Below are positions 31,528 through 42,173 of a stretch of DNA of 52,373 nucleotides, in pieces. The notes below the pieces were generated by a model. That model saw nothing but the letters and a program-made list of their open reading frames with translations. It made no database searches and was not told where the DNA came from. Source of the stretch: Bacteroidales bacterium (GTDB taxonomy: Bacteria > Bacteroidota > Bacteroidia > Bacteroidales > VadinHA17). The DNA lies in the NCBI GenBank assembly GCA_027028505.1, contig JALVJE010000236.1:1-52373 (forward strand), written 5' to 3'. Numbering within the stretch: position 1 is the stretch's first letter; the number at the start of each line of letters is the position of its first letter. Made by a program: the position numbers and the translations under genes.

Positions 31528-32494
31528 CCGCAACGGACATACGGCTGCGAAATTTCCCTGGGGGTCGGAGCACCGCTATTTCCCGGCCTCCCTGTACTAC
31601 CGCAAGCGTTTCGGCGGGAGGGCGCAGAAGCTGTCGCTGGATGCGGGCTTCACCTGTCCCAACCGTGACGGCCGCGTGGGGCGGGGGGGATGCACCTATT
31701 GCAACAACGATGCTTTCAGCCCCTCCTACTGCGTGCCGGAGAAGAGCATTACGCAGCAATTGCGGGAAGGGATGGAATTCCATCGCCGCCGCTACCGCCG
31801 CGCCGGCAGCTTCCTGGCTTACTTCCAGGCGTATACCAACACCTATGCCCCGCTGGACGAGCTGAAGAGAAAATACGAGGAGGCGCTCTCCGTGGAGGGG
31901 GTGGACGGACTGGTCATCTCCACCCGCCCCGATTGTGTGGACGGGCCCATCCTCGATTACCTGGCCTCCCTGGCGCAGCAGGTGTTCGTGGCCGTGGAGT
32001 ATGGCGTGGAGTCCTGTTATGACAGGACCCTGCGGATGATCAACAGAGGCCACGATTTTGCGGCGAGCCGGAAGGCCATCCGCGAGACCGCGGCGCGCGG
32101 CCTGCCCACAGGAGCCCATCTGATCCTGGGCCTCCCCGGCGAGAGCCGGGAGGAGATGCTGGCCGAGGCGGAGATCCTCTCCTCCCTGCCCCTCGACATG
32201 ATCAAGCTGCACCAGCTGCAGATCGTCAAAGGCACCGTCATGGCCCGGCAGTACTGGGACGATCCGGATGCGTTCCACCTCTTCACCTGGGAGGAGTACC
32301 GCGACCTGGTGATCGCTTTCCTGGAGCGGCTGCGCCCCGACATTGCCGTGGAACGGGTGGTGGGCGAATCGCCCCCCCGTTACCTGGTCACCTCCCGCTT
32401 CGGAAAACGCCCCGACGTGCTGATGCAGGAGATCCTCCAGCGCATGGAAGAGCTGGATACCTGGCAAGGGAAAAGAAGGATGAATGATGAATGA
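31520..32494 (+). CDS. Radical SAM protein of the YhcC (TIGR01212) family
   Basis: The protein has 324 residues. The radical SAM cluster is formed by the cysteines in FTCPNRDGRVGRGGCTYCNN (a long CX11-12CxxC spacing typical of the YhcC group rather than classic CxxxCxxC). Other family blocks are ITQQLREGMEFHRRRYR, FLAYFQAYTNTYAPLDELKRKYEEAL, VDGLVISTRPDC, and EYGVESCYDRTLRMINRGHDF with GLPGESREEML. The reaction is not established for this family. The gene lies between addA and addB and overlaps addA by 8 nt, so it is in the same transcript. A short-period repeat starts in its last codons and fills the gap to addB. Confidence 0.93.
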   Translation: MTDRNGHTAAKFPWGSEHRYFPASLYYRKRFGGRAQKLSLDAGFTCPNRDGRVGRGGCTYCNNDAFSPSYCVPEKSITQQLREGMEFHRRRYRRAGSFLAYFQAYTNTYAPLDELKRKYEEALSVEGVDGLVISTRPDCVDGPILDYLASLAQQVFVAVEYGVESCYDRTLRMINRGHDFAASRKAIRETAARGLPTGAHLILGLPGESREEMLAEAEILSSLPLDMIKLHQLQIVKGTVMARQYWDDPDAFHLFTWEEYRDLVIAFLERLRPDIAVERVVGESPPRYLVTSRFGKRPDVLMQEILQRMEELDTWQGKRRMNDE

Positions 32495-32556
32495 TGAATG
32501 ATGAACGACGAACCTGGAACCTGGAACCTGAAACTTGGAACCTGGAACCTGAAACG
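32482..32556. repeat. 7-nt tandem array between the radical SAM stop and the addB start
   Basis: Units GAATGAT (in-frame codons of the end of the radical SAM gene, then beyond its TGA) pass into GAACGAC and then into CTGGAAC/CTGAAAC units up to the addB ATG. It is the only short-period array in this window that sits inside an operon. If translation began at 32491 it would add 22 low-complexity residues to AddB. Confidence 0.85.
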
Positions 32557-35451
32557 ATGATTACTTTCATCCATAAAGTTGCCGAACACATCTTCACCAC
32601 CCACGGTGAGGCGATGGGGGAGGTGAGTGTGGTGCTGCCCAACCGGCGGGCCGGCCTCTTTTTCAACCGGTCGGTGGCCACCCTGACGGACGGACCTGTC
32701 TGGGCGCCCCGTGTGGTGGACATACGTTCCTTCATGGAGATGCTGGCGGGGCGGGAGGTGTCCGACGACCTGCTGCTGGTGAAAGAGCTGTATGGTGTAT
32801 ACAAAAAGGTCCTGGGCACCGACGAACCTTTTGAAAAGTTTTACCCCTGGGGAGTGATGCTGCTGGGCGATTTTGATGATATCGACAAGTACCTCGTCGA
32901 TGCCCGCGATCTCTTCCGCAACCTCAAAGCCGTCAGGGACCTTTCTGCCGATCTCTCCTACCTGACTGAAGAGCAGATAGAGCTGATACGCCGTTTCTGG
33001 GATCATTTTCCGGCCGACGGGAAGGGGCATGCGCCGCTGTTCCTGGCGTTGTGGGAAAAACTGAATGAGATCTACGTGACATTCCGGGAAACCCTCAAAG
33101 AGAAAGATCTGGCTTATGAAGGGATGATCTACCGGGAGGTGGCGGAGCGCTTTCGGAGAGGCGATGACGGCATCGATCTGCCCCCTGTCGTATATTTTGT
33201 GGGCTTCAATGCCCTGACGCCGGCCGAAGAGATCCTTTTCAGGGGAATGCAGACCGCCGGGAAAGCTTTTTTCTTTTGGGATTATGATATCGCCTATGTT
33301 GAACGCCGGAAGGATGTGCCGCTGGCCGGTCATGATGCGGGACGTTTTATCGCCGCTTATCTGAAAAAGTTCCCGCCTCCCGTCGACCTGGGTATCTTCG
33401 ATAATCTTTCCCGTAAGGATAAAAAGGTGGAGATCTGGTCGTCGCCCAACCGCACCACGCAGTCGTGGGTAGTGAAGCAGGTGCTGGAGGCCTGGGGCCG
33501 GGAGGGGCTGCCGGAAGCAGAGAGGGTGGCCGTGGTGCTGGGCGACGAACAGCTGCTGCTGCCGGTGCTGCATGCCCTGCCGGAGTCGGCCGGCGAGGTG
33601 AACGTGACCATGGGTTATCCCCTGCGATCGTCGCCGGTATATGCTTTCTTCAGCCAGGCCCTCACGCTGGTGAAAAACCGGCGCACCACAGGGGGGAAGG
33701 TCTTCTACTACTATCACCATGATGTGCTGGCCCTCCTGCGCAACCCGCTGGTGCGGATGCAGGGAGGGGAGAAGCTGATTCGGTGGGAGAAAGAGATCAT
33801 CCGGAACAACATGATCTATATCGGATCCGATGATATTCATATCGGCGAGCCGGTATCCCGTATCTTTACGGATCCCGGCGGTCCTATTGACTACAGCGCG
33901 ACCCTCCTGGAAGTGCTCTACGATCTGATCCTTTCGGCCACACCGCAGGAAGAAGAAAAGCCGGCGGTCGATCTCAGCCTGGAGGTCTTTTACCGTCTCT
34001 CCCTGCTGGTGACCCGTTTCAACGGTTTCGTCACAGGAGAGTCCCTGCAGCTCTCCCCCGAAGGGTACCTCTCTCTGCTCCTGCACCTGGCGGAAAAAGA
34101 TTCCGTGTCCTTCTACGGCGAGCCTCTCACCGGCCTCCAGGTGATGGGGGTGCTCGAGACGCGTTTGCTCGACTTTGACCGGCTGATCATCCTCTCGGCC
34201 AACGAGGGGAGTCTCCCCAAACCGGCCTCTGCGGCCTCCTACATACCCTACAACCTGCGGAAAGGCTTCGGCCTGCCTGCCTGGGAACACCGAGACAGCC
34301 TCTTCGCCTACTATTTCTTCCGGCTGATCCAGCGGGCCCGCGAGGTGGTGCTGGTGTACCATACCGAGTCCGGACAGGGCATAACGGGAGAGAAAAGCCG
34401 TTTCATCAGCCAGATGCAGTATTTCCTGGGGATGGGAACGAGGGTGAAGAACCTTTTCTTCCGGCCGGGGATCAGCAAAAGAGAGGCTCTTGTGGTGGAG
34501 AAGGACCGGGATGTGATCCGCAAAATGATCTCTCTGTATTCGGCCGGTAAATATCTTTCTCCGAGTGCACTGAACAGCTATCTGGATTGTCGTCTGCGGT
34601 TTTATTTCAGGTATGTGGCAGGCATCCGGGAGGCCGATGAGATCACCGAGGATGTGGACCATGCGCTTTTCGGACAGCTGATCCACAAGGCCCTGGAGAT
34701 CCTGTATGATCCGGCCGGCTCATGCGTGCCGGCGGGCGGAGTGGTCACTGCGGAGGTGCTGAAAAAGATGAAGGAACAGCACCTGGAGGAGGCGGTGGAC
34801 ATTGCTATGCGTAAGGTGCTCTCCGGGGGAGAAGGCCGGCGGGAGGTACCCGTTGCGCCTCTGCACAGGATCATCCGCTCCATGGTGGTAAGCTATGTGA
34901 AGAAAGTCTTGGATTATGACCGGCAGCTGGCGCCCCTGACGATACTGGGCGTGGAGAAAGAGGTGTGTGATCCTGTTTCCCTGACCGTCGGAGGAGATAC
35001 CGTGACCGTTAGCCTGTGTGGCAAGATCGACCGGGTGGACCGGACGGCTGCAGGCGTGCGGGTGATCGACTACAAGACCGGCGGCAGGGGCGCAGAGAAG
35101 CTGAGCTTCGGGAGTCTGGACGAGCTTTTTGACCGGCAGCGCAGCACCCGCAAAAAAGAGATCTTCCAGGTGATGATGTACGCCATGATGTATCCCGGGG
35201 ACGATCCTCCCGCTACAGTGCTCTATTTCCTGAAGGATATGTTCGGCACGGAAGCCCTGCAACAGGTGCGGATTGGCAGCGGCAGGTCCAAAGAGATCTA
35301 TCGTTTCGACCGGCAGGAAAAACAGTACTTCCGCGACCGTATCACCGGCCTGGTGGAAGAGATCTTCGACCCTGCGGTGCCCTTTGATATGACTTCCCGC
35401 GAGGAGAACTGCCGCTACTGCCCTTTTAAAGAGATCTGTGAAAAGGAATGA
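32557..35451 (+). CDS. addB: AddB-like PD-(D/E)XK nuclease with Fe-S staple
   Basis: The protein has 964 residues from the ATG at 32557 (MITFIHKVAEHIF); upstream in-frame codons are repeat sequence. The N-terminal two thirds are a degenerate UvrD-like scaffold (VVLPNRRAGLFFNR, PPVVYFVGFNALTPAEEILF, IILSANEGSLPK, YYFFRLIQRAREVVLVYHT) with no clear Walker A. The C-terminus has a nuclease domain: YLSPSALNSYLDCRLRFYFRY, HALFGQLIHKALEILY, KIDRVDRTAAGVRVIDYKTGG, and a cysteine cluster ENCRYCPFKEIC. The early Cys (LDC) plus CxxCxxxxxC make the four ligands of the AddB-type [4Fe-4S] staple. It should work with the AddA-like protein upstream in recombination repair. Confidence 0.92.
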   Translation: MITFIHKVAEHIFTTHGEAMGEVSVVLPNRRAGLFFNRSVATLTDGPVWAPRVVDIRSFMEMLAGREVSDDLLLVKELYGVYKKVLGTDEPFEKFYPWGVMLLGDFDDIDKYLVDARDLFRNLKAVRDLSADLSYLTEEQIELIRRFWDHFPADGKGHAPLFLALWEKLNEIYVTFRETLKEKDLAYEGMIYREVAERFRRGDDGIDLPPVVYFVGFNALTPAEEILFRGMQTAGKAFFFWDYDIAYVERRKDVPLAGHDAGRFIAAYLKKFPPPVDLGIFDNLSRKDKKVEIWSSPNRTTQSWVVKQVLEAWGREGLPEAERVAVVLGDEQLLLPVLHALPESAGEVNVTMGYPLRSSPVYAFFSQALTLVKNRRTTGGKVFYYYHHDVLALLRNPLVRMQGGEKLIRWEKEIIRNNMIYIGSDDIHIGEPVSRIFTDPGGPIDYSATLLEVLYDLILSATPQEEEKPAVDLSLEVFYRLSLLVTRFNGFVTGESLQLSPEGYLSLLLHLAEKDSVSFYGEPLTGLQVMGVLETRLLDFDRLIILSANEGSLPKPASAASYIPYNLRKGFGLPAWEHRDSLFAYYFFRLIQRAREVVLVYHTESGQGITGEKSRFISQMQYFLGMGTRVKNLFFRPGISKREALVVEKDRDVIRKMISLYSAGKYLSPSALNSYLDCRLRFYFRYVAGIREADEITEDVDHALFGQLIHKALEILYDPAGSCVPAGGVVTAEVLKKMKEQHLEEAVDIAMRKVLSGGEGRREVPVAPLHRIIRSMVVSYVKKVLDYDRQLAPLTILGVEKEVCDPVSLTVGGDTVTVSLCGKIDRVDRTAAGVRVIDYKTGGRGAEKLSFGSLDELFDRQRSTRKKEIFQVMMYAMMYPGDDPPATVLYFLKDMFGTEALQQVRIGSGRSKEIYRFDRQEKQYFRDRITGLVEEIFDPAVPFDMTSREENCRYCPFKEICEKE

Positions 35452-35595: not shown

Positions 35596-37341
35596 ATGCG
35601 ATCTGACTACCATCATTATAAGGTAGAGATAAAAAAACTGAAATTTACGACCCCTGAAGGGCAGGTCCTTCCCAATACGGCCATCATCACTTTTTACGAT
35701 GACGAGGATGCGAACATGGGCGTGGAACTGCTGGGCTACCGCGAGACCCGCGAGTGGTACGATCTGATCGACGCAGGGGAGCCGCTCCTGATGGACCATT
35801 GCTATGTGCGGGATTTTTCCCTTTCGGACTACCGGAATGCCAAAGGCCTGGAGAAAAGATCACGGGTCACCATACCCCGTTTTTCCGCCCGGAATGCCTT
35901 TTTTGAGGCGAAGCTCCTCAATGATTTTTCATTCGCCGACTTCACCGACGGGAATGTGGACCTGGAGTTCACCCATTTCGCTGCCGGTCCTGTCTCTTTC
36001 AACTCCTCCCGTTTTGGCGATGGCGATCCGGTATTCAACAATATGCTTTTCAGGGATGGCAATGTGGATTTCGGCAATGTGACCTTCGGGACAGGCACCA
36101 AAGGGTTCAAGAACTCCATCTACCTGGATGGCAAGAAAGATTTTCAATACTGTAATTTTGGCGACGGGGAGGTCAGTTTTAACAATACCGAGTTCAACCA
36201 CGGGGAGCTCTCTTTCATCAATGCCGTCTTCGGGACGGGCAATGTCAGTTTCAAGATCTGCCGCATTACCGGAGGTAAGGTGGTGTTCCATTATGCCCGT
36301 TTCGGCAAGGGGAACATCAGTTTTGAAAGGGTGGAATTCGGGGATGCGCGGGTTGACCTGCGTGCCGTGGAGTTCGGTGAGGGAAGGGTCAATTTCAACC
36401 GGTCGCTGTTTGGTGACGGCGAGCTGACCTTTGAGGGGAGCGAGCTGCCCCACGGACGCTTTTATTTCAAGCGGGTTGTCATGGGCAGGGGATCGGTGAG
36501 CTTTGACATGGCCGGATTTAACGATACGGAGCTGTTTTTCGAAAAAACCGATTTCGGCTCGCGGGACGTCTCTTTAGCCGGTGGCACTTTCCGTCATCTC
36601 TCCCTGCAGTCGTGCCATCTGGACCATTATTTCGACCTGCGGGTAAAGTCCTGCGGATACCTGGATCTCTCCGATACCGTGGTACGCGATATCGTTGACC
36701 TGCAGCCTTATGACCAGGATGTGGAGATCGGTGTCTTCAATATCTCCGGCATGCGCCTGCTCGGCCGTCTTTATCTCAGCTGGGAGGAGAACAGGGTCGC
36801 GGAAATGATCACCCGCCAGGAGAGCGGACATCATACCAAAGCCGAACAGTTCAGGATCCTCAAGGAGAATTTCAGCGTCACCGGACAGTATACCGATGAA
36901 GACAAAGCCTATGTCTGTTTTAAAAGATATGAAGCGCTGGCCGAACTGGAAAAACAAAAAAAGAAGGGTTTTCTTCAGGCCCTGAACGGCCGGATCCAGT
37001 ATGCTTTCAAATGGCTGGTATTCGACAGGATCGGCCTCTATGCCACCGACCCTGTGCGGGTGTTGATATCGATGGTCTTTGCCTATCTGTTCTTCACGGT
37101 CATCTATCTGGTGCTGCCCCTCTTGTTCAATACCCGCATTGTATCCTCGCTGGGCGATCCCGATCACCTTTCAACGGCAGCCGTGGCTTTTTACCACAGT
37201 GCCATTACTTTCCTGACGATCGGCTACGGTGACTATTATCCTTCAGGCATGATCCGCTGGATCTCGGGCGTGGAAGGGTTTGTGGGACTTTTTATGATGT
37301 CCTATTTCACCGTTGCTTTTGTGCGGAAGATCCTCCGGTGA
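35596..37341 (+). CDS. Two-TM K+-channel protein with an 18-copy dodecapeptide solenoid
   Basis: The protein has 581 residues. Residues 116-331 are eighteen consecutive 12-residue repeats without a gap, of the form F-x-x-G-x-[VLI]-x-F-x-x-x-x (for example FGDGEVSFNNTE, FNHGELSFINAV, FGTGNVSFKICR). The register is exact from F116 to 331, and a degenerate unit follows. This is not the five-residue pentapeptide pattern, although it probably also forms a beta-solenoid. After a linker (about 350-475) come TM1 (about 488-511), a pore helix and selectivity filter TIGYGDYYP (541-549), and TM2 (about 561-578). The filter is that of K+-selective two-TM channels. The gene stands alone after addB. A ligand- or scaffold-gated K+ channel is inferred; no ligand can be named. 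Confidence 0.88.
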   Translation: MRSDYHHYKVEIKKLKFTTPEGQVLPNTAIITFYDDEDANMGVELLGYRETREWYDLIDAGEPLLMDHCYVRDFSLSDYRNAKGLEKRSRVTIPRFSARNAFFEAKLLNDFSFADFTDGNVDLEFTHFAAGPVSFNSSRFGDGDPVFNNMLFRDGNVDFGNVTFGTGTKGFKNSIYLDGKKDFQYCNFGDGEVSFNNTEFNHGELSFINAVFGTGNVSFKICRITGGKVVFHYARFGKGNISFERVEFGDARVDLRAVEFGEGRVNFNRSLFGDGELTFEGSELPHGRFYFKRVVMGRGSVSFDMAGFNDTELFFEKTDFGSRDVSLAGGTFRHLSLQSCHLDHYFDLRVKSCGYLDLSDTVVRDIVDLQPYDQDVEIGVFNISGMRLLGRLYLSWEENRVAEMITRQESGHHTKAEQFRILKENFSVTGQYTDEDKAYVCFKRYEALAELEKQKKKGFLQALNGRIQYAFKWLVFDRIGLYATDPVRVLISMVFAYLFFTVIYLVLPLLFNTRIVSSLGDPDHLSTAAVAFYHSAITFLTIGYGDYYPSGMIRWISGVEGFVGLFMMSYFTVAFVRKILR

Positions 37342-37388: not shown

Positions 37389-38654
37389 ATGTACATCCCT
37401 TTGCTGGTGGTCTTTTATCTTTTCTTCCCGGCCCTGATCATTTATGCCACCCGGAAAAACAGTATCGTGGAAAAGATCGGTGCCGTGGTGATCGCCTATG
37501 CCGTCGGACTGCTCCTGGGCAATGTCGGTATCTTCCCGCAGATATCGGAAGCCTATCATAATCTCCTTCAGGGACGTGTGGCCATGCCTGCCGATGAGGC
37601 GGCCCGTTTGCTCGAACAGGGAAAGATCACGGCCGGCGACCTGCTGCGCAACCGCATCGCCACGGTCCAGGATATGATCACCACGATCACCATCCCCCTG
37701 GCCATTCCGCTGCTTCTTTTTTCCCTCAACATACGCAAATGGTTCCGTCTGGCAGGGACCACTTTTCTATCCCTGATACTGGCCCTGATCTCTGTGGTGG
37801 TGGTGGTCTTTGCCGGCTATTATATCTTCCGGGACAAGATCCCCGAGCTGGGCAAGATCGCCGGCATGCTCATCGGCATTTACTCGGGCGGGACCCCCAA
37901 CCTGGCCTCTATCAAGGAAGCTCTCGATGTGAATCCCGACATCTTCATCATGACCCATACGGCCGATCTGGTGATAGGGGCCATTACGCTGCTTTTCCTG
38001 ATGACGGTGGCCCAGCGGTTCTTTCTGTTGTTCCTCCCGCCCTTCCGCAACCCCCACAGTGCCGGCGAAACAGAACGCCTGGCACGGGAGGCGGCCGAGA
38101 TGGATGATTTCTCCGGGATCTTTACGAAAGAGAATTTCTTCCCCCTCCTCAAAGCCATCGGTCTCTCTGTGCTGATCTTTGCCATCGGGGGGGCACTGGG
38201 TCTCCTCGTTCCCAAAAAATCCATGATGGCCGTGGTGATCCTGACCATTACCACTTTGGGGATCCTGGCTTCCCTGCTCCCGGCGGTCAACAATATCAAA
38301 AAAACCTATCAGACAGGCATGTACTTCATCGTCGTTTTCTGTCTGGTAGTCTCCTCCATGGCCGACCTGCGGGGGATGATCAATGTCGAATATCTCGACC
38401 TGCTCATGTATGTGGCGCTGGTCTATTTCGGCTCCCTCTTCGTGCACATCCTCCTCTCCATGATCTTCCGCATCGACGCCGACACGGTGATCATCACTTC
38501 CACGGCCATGATCTATTCCCCGCCATTCGTGCCGGTGATCGCCTCGGCCCTGAAGAACAGGGATGTGATCATCTCAGGCCTCACCGCCGGCATCGTCGGC
38601 TATATCATCGGGAATTACCTGGGCATCTTTACCGGCTTCCTGCTGGGAGGATAG
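37389..38654 (+). CDS. DUF819 family integral membrane protein
   Basis: The protein has 421 residues and about ten to eleven membrane helices. The features match DUF819 proteins: VEKIGAVVIAYAVGLLLGNVG near the start, ATVQDMITTITIPLAIPLLLFSLNIRKWFRLAG, KIAGMLIGIYSGGTPNLASIKEAL, and a C-terminal repeat-like part PPFVPVIASALKNRDVIISGLTAGIVGYIIGNYLG. DUF819 proteins are putative transporters without an established substrate. It starts 47 nt after the channel gene on the same strand, so cotranscription is possible. A GAAGCTC array begins at its stop codon. Confidence 0.9.
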   Translation: MYIPLLVVFYLFFPALIIYATRKNSIVEKIGAVVIAYAVGLLLGNVGIFPQISEAYHNLLQGRVAMPADEAARLLEQGKITAGDLLRNRIATVQDMITTITIPLAIPLLLFSLNIRKWFRLAGTTFLSLILALISVVVVVFAGYYIFRDKIPELGKIAGMLIGIYSGGTPNLASIKEALDVNPDIFIMTHTADLVIGAITLLFLMTVAQRFFLLFLPPFRNPHSAGETERLAREAAEMDDFSGIFTKENFFPLLKAIGLSVLIFAIGGALGLLVPKKSMMAVVILTITTLGILASLLPAVNNIKKTYQTGMYFIVVFCLVVSSMADLRGMINVEYLDLLMYVALVYFGSLFVHILLSMIFRIDADTVIITSTAMIYSPPFVPVIASALKNRDVIISGLTAGIVGYIIGNYLGIFTGFLLGG

Positions 38655-41765: not shown

Positions 41766-42173
41766 ATGAAATTGGAAGATCTTGAAATTTACAGACTTTC
41801 CATGGATATGGGTGAGAAGGTCTGGGCTATTGTGGTCAAATGGGATGGCTTTGCCAAAGATACAGTGGGCAGGCAATTGGTGAGAGCTGTTGATTCGGTG
41901 GCAGCGAATTTAAGCGAAGGTTTTGGAAGGTACCATTACCGGGAAAAGAAACATTTTAGTTATTATTCAAGAGGATCCTTGTATGAGTCAAGGACATGGT
42001 TGGTAAAAGCATATAACAGAGGCCTGTTAGATCATGAGGATTTTAATTCATTCATGAAAGATATTGACCTGATCGGAGTAAAATTGAATAACTACATTAG
42101 AACAACAGGCGGGGATCAGCTTCATGAAGATCCTGAAGAATATTATACTAATTCCAATGATGATAATATTTAA
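41766..42173 (+). CDS. Four-helix-bundle (S23 / IVP-like) protein
   Basis: The protein has 135 residues. It matches the four-helix-bundle family known from ORFs in 23S rRNA intervening sequences and related to Avd of diversity-generating retroelements: LEIYRLSMDMGEKVWAIV (helix 1), RQLVRAVDSVAANLSEGFGRYHYREKKHF (helix 2 with the RA...S.AANxxEGFGR signature), SRGSLYESRTWLVKAYNRGLL (helix 3), then a fourth helix and an acidic tail. Family members form pentameric barrels and, in Avd, bind nucleic acid. No rRNA and no reverse transcriptase are nearby. The gene is AT-rich compared with hutI and ftcD, which it separates, and 11/22-bp repeat arrays abut it on both sides. A mobile-cassette nature and repeat binding are inference. 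Confidence 0.92.
   Translation: MKLEDLEIYRLSMDMGEKVWAIVVKWDGFAKDTVGRQLVRAVDSVAANLSEGFGRYHYREKKHFSYYSRGSLYESRTWLVKAYNRGLLDHEDFNSFMKDIDLIGVKLNNYIRTTGGDQLHEDPEEYYTNSNDDNI

Follow-up and report, generated by a model that had tools for sequence, protein, structure and literature searches.

The window, a stretch of 52,373 nucleotides, contains at 35596–37341 on the forward strand an open reading frame (ORF) of 581 aa with an ATG start. The encoded protein combines a predicted N-terminal beta-solenoid with a C-terminal two-transmembrane (two-TM) K+ pore. Its parts and the two flanking genes are listed below, with the evidence for each part of the channel gene given in brackets (AF2, AlphaFold model).

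35596..37341, + strand: whole gene of the solenoid-K+ channel, 581 aa (ORF, Pfam, autocorrelation, alignment)
35596..35907, + strand: N-terminal domain, residues 1–104, a small alpha/beta domain and the first irregular turns (AF2, alignment)
35908..36591, + strand: regular solenoid, residues 105–332 (autocorrelation, repeat profile, covariation, AF2)
36592..36780, + strand: irregular end of the solenoid, residues 333–395 (AF2)
36781..37047, + strand: helical linker, residues 396–484 (alignments, AF2)
37051..37125, + strand: outer helix TM1, residues 486–510 (AF2, conservation scores)
37174..37233, + strand: pore helix and selectivity filter, residues 527–546 (AF2, family filter count)
37252..37338, + strand: inner helix to the C-terminus, residues 553–581, strongly conserved, FMMSYFTVAFVRKILR (alignment, 72-row set)
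32491..35451, + strand: AddB-like PD-(D/E)XK protein, upstream neighbour
37389..38654, + strand: DUF819 membrane protein, downstream neighbour at a distance of 47 nt

Pfam analysis of the gene product returned PF07885 (Ion_trans_2) alone, at residues 494–579 with E 4.9e-10 and a score of 39.6 bits against the gathering score of 22.5; NCBIfam at E ≤ 10 gave two weak matches, neither of them to a pentapeptide family. The two-TM pore with its T-x-G-Y-G motif shows sequence matches to the pores of KcsA, KirBac, and Kv, and the TIGYGD filter occupies residues 541–546. The AlphaFold model of the whole protein (pLDDT 90.4, pTM 0.76) runs in the order strand-rich N-terminal domain, solenoid, helical linker, outer helix, pore helix, filter, inner helix, and end, with the linker motifs QFRILKENF..., EDxAYxxFKR, and GLYATxPxR lying ahead of TM1. 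Pfam matched no C-terminal RCK or cyclic-nucleotide-binding domain, and both the ORF and the model stop at the inner helix; the protein thus lacks a C-terminal sensor, which makes the solenoid the likely regulatory domain. The gating domains of KcsA, KirBac, and Kv channels differ from those of the solenoid channel, and to our knowledge none of these channels carries an N-terminal solenoid.

To place the protein in its family, we collected relatives. A scan of genome contigs located 78 loci, nearly all in Bacteroidota MAGs, with one labelled Chlorobiota. Before the family work, 13 of 79 loci were left out as own or near-identical copies, fragments, or frameshifted or cut genes (L001, L002, L025, L032, L042, L050, L058, L061, L066, L068, L071, L074, and L078), so that 66 loci were kept and the unit count covered 67 rows with the window. 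Alignment A1 consists of the window protein and 52 of the 66 loci, chosen for diversity, and A2 of the 40 of 53 rows whose solenoid segment spans 291–319 residues. A 72-row set holds forward-strand frames only, includes the window's own gene twice, and takes in a number of long forms in which the added units are difficult to align; filtering for gaps and at 90% identity reduced it to 53 sequences for covariation analysis. PF07885 was found in 53/53 A1 members at E ≤ 1 and likewise at E ≤ 0.001, and the filter T-x-G-[YF]-G-[DE] in all 72 rows (68 distinct). The linker is also highly conserved in the family alignment. Only two positions vary among the last 16 residues of the 72 rows, a conservation that is partly circular because rows needed SYFTVAF and RK near the end; the six patterns by which loci were retrieved included FMMSYFTV, and L014, outside the 72-row set, ends in VRRVLR.

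Among 295 sampled genomes of the window's order, 59 matched at E ≤ 1e-10; with four matches to the pore alone or to fragments set aside (G309, G321, G423, and G456), a long match remains in 55/295. In the phylum sample, 7 of 296 genomes matched, with the solenoid covered in the window's own genome only, and a solenoid profile at E ≤ 1e-5 detected one of 198 sampled phylum genomes, again the window's own. That genome contains four Ion_trans_2 matches and no Pentapeptide_3 match (the control search was positive in 9 of 14 genomes). The dN/dS ratio of the channel gene is 0.067 against its 97% relative L002, more distant pairs being near or beyond synonymous saturation; selection on the gene is purifying.

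Analysis of the identity autocorrelation over residues 101–340 revealed peaks at lags 12 (z = 10.8), 24 (z = 12.1), and 36 (z = 11.2), none of which was reached in any of 2000 shuffles. A 12-position profile built from A1, window protein included, scored 275 on the window chain, compared with a maximum of 15 in 200 shuffles. The regular solenoid comprises 18 clear 12-residue units at residues 117–332 and a stretch at 105–116 that is itself a unit in many relatives. An earlier sequence-only reading had described 18 gap-free 12-residue repeats at 116–331, then a linker and a two-TM K+ pore with TIGYGDYYP. The autocorrelation and the profile bore out the repeats, which are those of 117–332 in our phase; PF07885 and the AlphaFold model confirmed the linker and pore, and the ORF, Pfam, and model supported the overall architecture.

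To determine how many residues form one coil, we calculated APC-corrected mutual information over residues 105–332 in the 53 filtered sequences. The covariation peaked at lag 24 (0.583 sd), followed by lags 48 and 72, with lags 12 and 36 at 0.07. Lag 24 remained on top at all three redundancy cut-offs, including the tighter ones of 70% (30 sequences) and 60% (24 sequences), with z against other lags of 6.3, 5.1, and 3.9. In the second half of the solenoid lag 24 was again highest, and in the first half lag 72 exceeded lag 24, with 0.20 at lag 12 versus 0.46 at lag 24. The helical linker-pore region, used as a control, peaked at lags 4 and 3 and gave -0.04 at lag 24. Because the covariation peaks at lag 24 and not at 12, one coil equals two repeats, or 24 residues, and a literal dodecapeptide coil was rejected.

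The number of units differs among relatives. The main size class has 19 units (38 of the 67 rows, most starting at residue 105), the shorter proteins of 559–564 residues have 17 (L052, L054, L060, and L062–L064), and L045 and L057 have 26; counts of 14–16 or 20–23 in some other rows reflect units too weak for the profile. The solenoids of L045 and L057 are longer by exactly seven 12-residue units, or three and a half coils, with flank lengths nearly unchanged, which indicates that half-coils can be gained; any orientation-dependent contact of the N-terminal domain would therefore be turned by half a coil in these proteins, a point against the gated-channel reading preferred below.

The repeat profile reads G-x-G-x-[VIL]-x-F-x-x-[AST]-x-F. 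We read the 12-mer as a pair of pentapeptides with a bulge of two residues (G-x); both five-residue stretches place a small or aliphatic residue two positions before Phe. An inward Phe preceded at this distance by a small or aliphatic residue is the i and i-2 pattern of pentapeptide-repeat proteins. The solenoid modelled alone reached pLDDT 97.0 and pTM 0.91, and ranks 1–36 of its Foldseek search were taken by 26 natural pentapeptide-repeat chains and 10 designed beta1-type solenoid chains (beta1 taken as a pentapeptide design from its alignment), with E values from 3.2e-4 for AlbG, the best, to 2.5e-2. TM-scores over the same ranks were just 0.13–0.29 on the query, reflecting a poor global overlay. 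The VIA structural aligner favoured other parallel beta-helices (Z about 20, 284 residues, rmsd 3.3–3.4), among them the Sf6 tailspike (Z 20.4, 284 residues, rmsd 3.4). Both sets of model comparisons would fit a pentapeptide-like local pattern within a wider coil. At the sequence level, Pentapeptide_3 (PF13576) matched 14 of the 53 A1 members at E ≤ 0.001, best in L045 (1e-14); in the window protein no Pfam pentapeptide family matched at E ≤ 10, and phmmer with the solenoid alone found no solved structure at E ≤ 10.

Comparison with the pentapeptide-repeat (Rfr) proteins AlbG, MfpA, and Qnr (PF00805, PF13599, and PF13576) thus shows top Foldseek ranks and a similar inward-Phe pattern, but the Rfr coil is built as 5+5+5+5 = 20 residues, whereas the window solenoid alternates 5+7 and contains 24. 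Instead of a five-residue period and a 20-residue coil, we found a period of 12 and, by covariation, a coil of 24. The sequence-only reading had kept the solenoid apart from pentapeptide repeats, a separation contradicted by the decomposition of the 12-mer, the Foldseek ranks, the Pentapeptide_3 matches, and the related channels with canonical repeats described below. Its suggestion of an undescribed geometry held for the widened 24-residue coil, whose period is not five, and failed for a 12-residue coil. The protein appears to belong largely, though not fully, to the described pentapeptide class, from which it departs in its period, in the missing Pentapeptide match of the window protein, and in its poor superposition over the whole length; on the right-handed quadrilateral beta-helix of that superfamily, the confident solenoid model likewise brought pentapeptide-type matches together with low TM-scores. 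The geometry is most likely a widened, 24-residue pentapeptide-type helix that is partly new. Eight Bacteroidales Pentapeptide_3 loci (L117–L124) add intermediate periods: L117, L118, L120, L121, and L122 peak at 11 and 22, L123 shows a weak 11/22 peak, and L119 and L124 peak at 10 and 20. These repeat periods suggest a series of coils with 20, 22, and 24 residues, in which the value of 24 has covariation as its basis and the other two the periods.

Elsewhere, N-terminal domains of other kinds precede a similar linker-pore module (13-sequence alignment; 17–26% identity outside the family). Halocatena WP_247995655.1, Halorarius WP_255152795.1, and Aeromonas L114 share a similar linker and pore and also end at the inner helix, but they are shorter proteins whose repeats are canonical or of the Pentapeptide_3 type, with no regular 12-mer seen. 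Aeromonas L114, from a 4.9 Mb record filed as a plasmid, carries PF00805 and PF07885; one pairwise comparison aligned its pore with that of the window protein at E 4e-13. Thirty-two plasmid records match the Aeromonas module, 20 of them annotated 'pentapeptide repeat-containing protein' under the match; the Pfam check of the repeats covered four proteins, those of Halocatena, Halorarius, Aeromonas, and Priestia. At E 0.01 the window linker-pore matched nothing in phage records, where the Aeromonas module had three weak matches (E 0.1–0.9). Among the literature matches listed, subscription papers being mostly beyond reach, no paper on bacterial pentapeptide-channel fusions was found, and the available main text of the 2021 pentapeptide review contains no word starting 'channel'.

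The neighbourhoods of the channel gene resemble housekeeping surroundings. The AddB-like gene is the commonest recurrent upstream neighbour, lying within 1.5 kb in 37 of the 70 loci with 1.5 kb of upstream DNA, and among the 72 loci with 1.5 kb downstream a ribH-like gene lies nearby in 22 and a TPR gene in 22, these cluster families having been assigned from one example each. The DUF819 gene, which recurs in a cluster of the window and eight loci, is a possible operon partner of the channel. In L048, L049, and L051 the channel gene is followed within 100 nt by a co-directional NhaD antiporter gene; in L051, TIGR00775 matched at E 1.3e-107, under its cut-off, and NF038006 over its cut-off. The NhaD cluster includes eight loci; in the five besides these three the gene has another placement, and two of the five, when scanned, were just NhaD-like (E about 1e-16). 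Beside the Halorarius channel gene (L115), an annotated sodium:proton antiporter gene adjoins on the opposite strand. Farther along the window, 41766–42173 encodes a member of the 23S rRNA intervening-sequence protein family (PF05635).

We assign a probability of roughly 0.6 to the reading that the gene encodes a tetrameric, K+-selective two-TM channel gated by an N-terminal cytoplasmic solenoid of widened pentapeptide type, vertically inherited and housekeeping in function. For the topology we took the usual arrangement of K+ channels, with no signal peptide seen by eye; the distant relative L142, described below, counts against this assumption. The sole regulatory module would be the right-handed beta-solenoid, with 24 residues per coil, on the cytoplasmic side. 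Analysis of its surface showed that positions 8 and 9 in most of units 7–16 are conserved about as strongly as the buried Phe (Jensen-Shannon conservation about 0.7). Position 8 scores 0.70–0.82 at K220, H232, E244, R256, N268, and E280, compared with 0.29–0.58 in units 1–5, with unit 8 (0.35) as an exception. The net charge of residues 105–332 is -8, and the family mean is -6.6. The conserved positions of units 7–16 may form a binding surface for a ligand or a partner protein, and binding there would exert a force that the helical linker and the GLYAT-P-R segment transmit to the outer helix, opening or shutting a gate at the inner helix. The physiological role would probably be homeostasis of K+, pH, or membrane potential, and not defence, a reading weakened because ion-transporter neighbours occur only in subsets of loci (DUF819 in eight loci and the window, NhaD in eight).

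Several other explanations were weighed against this gated housekeeping channel. That the solenoid is an unrelated, new fold with 12 residues per coil would agree with the clean 12-residue sequence period, the absence of a window Pentapeptide match, and the poor global overlay, but it is contradicted by the covariation at lag 24, by Foldseek ranks 1–36, and by Pentapeptide_3 in 14 of 53 members, and we regard it as very improbable. Alternatively, the solenoid might have no part in gating and serve as a scaffold or localiser, holding the channel to a partner (a transporter, or a protein of the nucleoid or envelope). Its length varies (17, 19, or 26 units) while the pore hardly changes, DUF819 or NhaD genes are adjacent in subsets of loci, and in the cases described in the available text of PMC8145042 pentapeptide domains act as receptors or inhibitors of proteins. 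Tethering appears somewhat unlikely, as the linker is also highly conserved, no other regulatory domain is present, and the best whole-model match is to HalA, a ligand-blocked channel as far as the available source text describes it.

The same match raises the question of a phage-defence effector of the Hailong type, in which a nucleic-acid ligand bound to the solenoid would hold the channel closed, to be removed on infection. HalA in complex with oligodeoxyadenylate (9nyi_A) was the best PDB match of the whole model and the sole one under 0.001 (E 1.0e-4, prob 1.00); the available text of PMC13275509 presents HalA as an ion channel blocked by poly-dA, and the corresponding parts of PMC12657230 and PMC12657218 describe single-stranded DNA as an inhibitor or decoy. 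On a Priestia megaterium plasmid (L158:3554-5157), moreover, a PF13599/PF00805 and PF07885 channel gene overlaps a nucleotidyltransferase gene by four bases; at E ≤ 1 the transferase matched nothing in the PDB except two HalB entries, both weakly (E 0.0068 and 0.0089), and the channel matches the window pore at E 2e-5 over 52 residues in a single comparison. By these sequence matches, the Priestia pair is probably a defence operon of the Hailong type, from Bacillota, whose channel has canonical pentapeptide repeats.

For the window channel, such a defence function is quite improbable. HalA has its HalB partner, but the eight window neighbours that were scanned include no nucleotidyltransferase, and none was recognised in the relatives' recurrent neighbour clusters, from which four proteins were run through Pfam; these neighbours, unlike those of Hailong, resemble housekeeping genes. 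A HalB-like search of the window's own genome, 92% complete, was empty and had no positive control, and PADLOC gave no match at E ≤ 1 with a 2023 library that may lack Hailong. The 9nyi_A alignment covers 418 columns with TM 0.24/0.39 and rmsd 14, and HalA was absent from the top 50 of the solenoid-only Foldseek search, so the whole-model match seems to need both parts and may reflect a similar architecture. HalA was also not among the 50 VIA matches listed for the whole or the solenoid model, which is absence from a list and not exclusion. The likeness to HalA comes from the model comparison, and the sequence matches listed contained no counterpart: 9nyi was not among the best 60 of 254 and best 60 of 346 matches of the pore profiles, the 58 phmmer matches of the Priestia channel, or the 19 linker-profile matches listed, the last being no evidence either way because they are mostly designed TPR proteins. 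A more speculative version of the housekeeping reading, which we consider improbable, is that the widened solenoid of these Bacteroidales K+ channels binds a nucleic acid or nucleotide without a dedicated synthase, that the family is HalA's resident ancestor or cousin, and that coils of 20, 22, and 24 residues set the width of the ligand face.

Under the preferred reading of a solenoid-gated housekeeping channel, solenoid-plus-K+-pore channels would occur beyond a phage-defence operon, in a conserved gene family that has a long match in 55 of the 295 sampled genomes of the order. The coil series further suggests that the pentapeptide helix can be widened stepwise by residues inserted in alternate turns, and if the solenoid gates the pore, the family would be tractable for learning what such solenoids sense. 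Two other proteins show variations on the design. In L117, an 11-residue-repeat pentapeptide solenoid is followed by a helical stretch and hydrophobic helices with no GYG filter near the end, making it a possible non-channel cousin of the solenoid-membrane design. In L142 (ORF of 539 aa), a distant linker-pore relative, a signal peptide, an extra hydrophobic segment, and a different membrane part seem by eye to be present, suggesting a periplasmic N-terminal domain.
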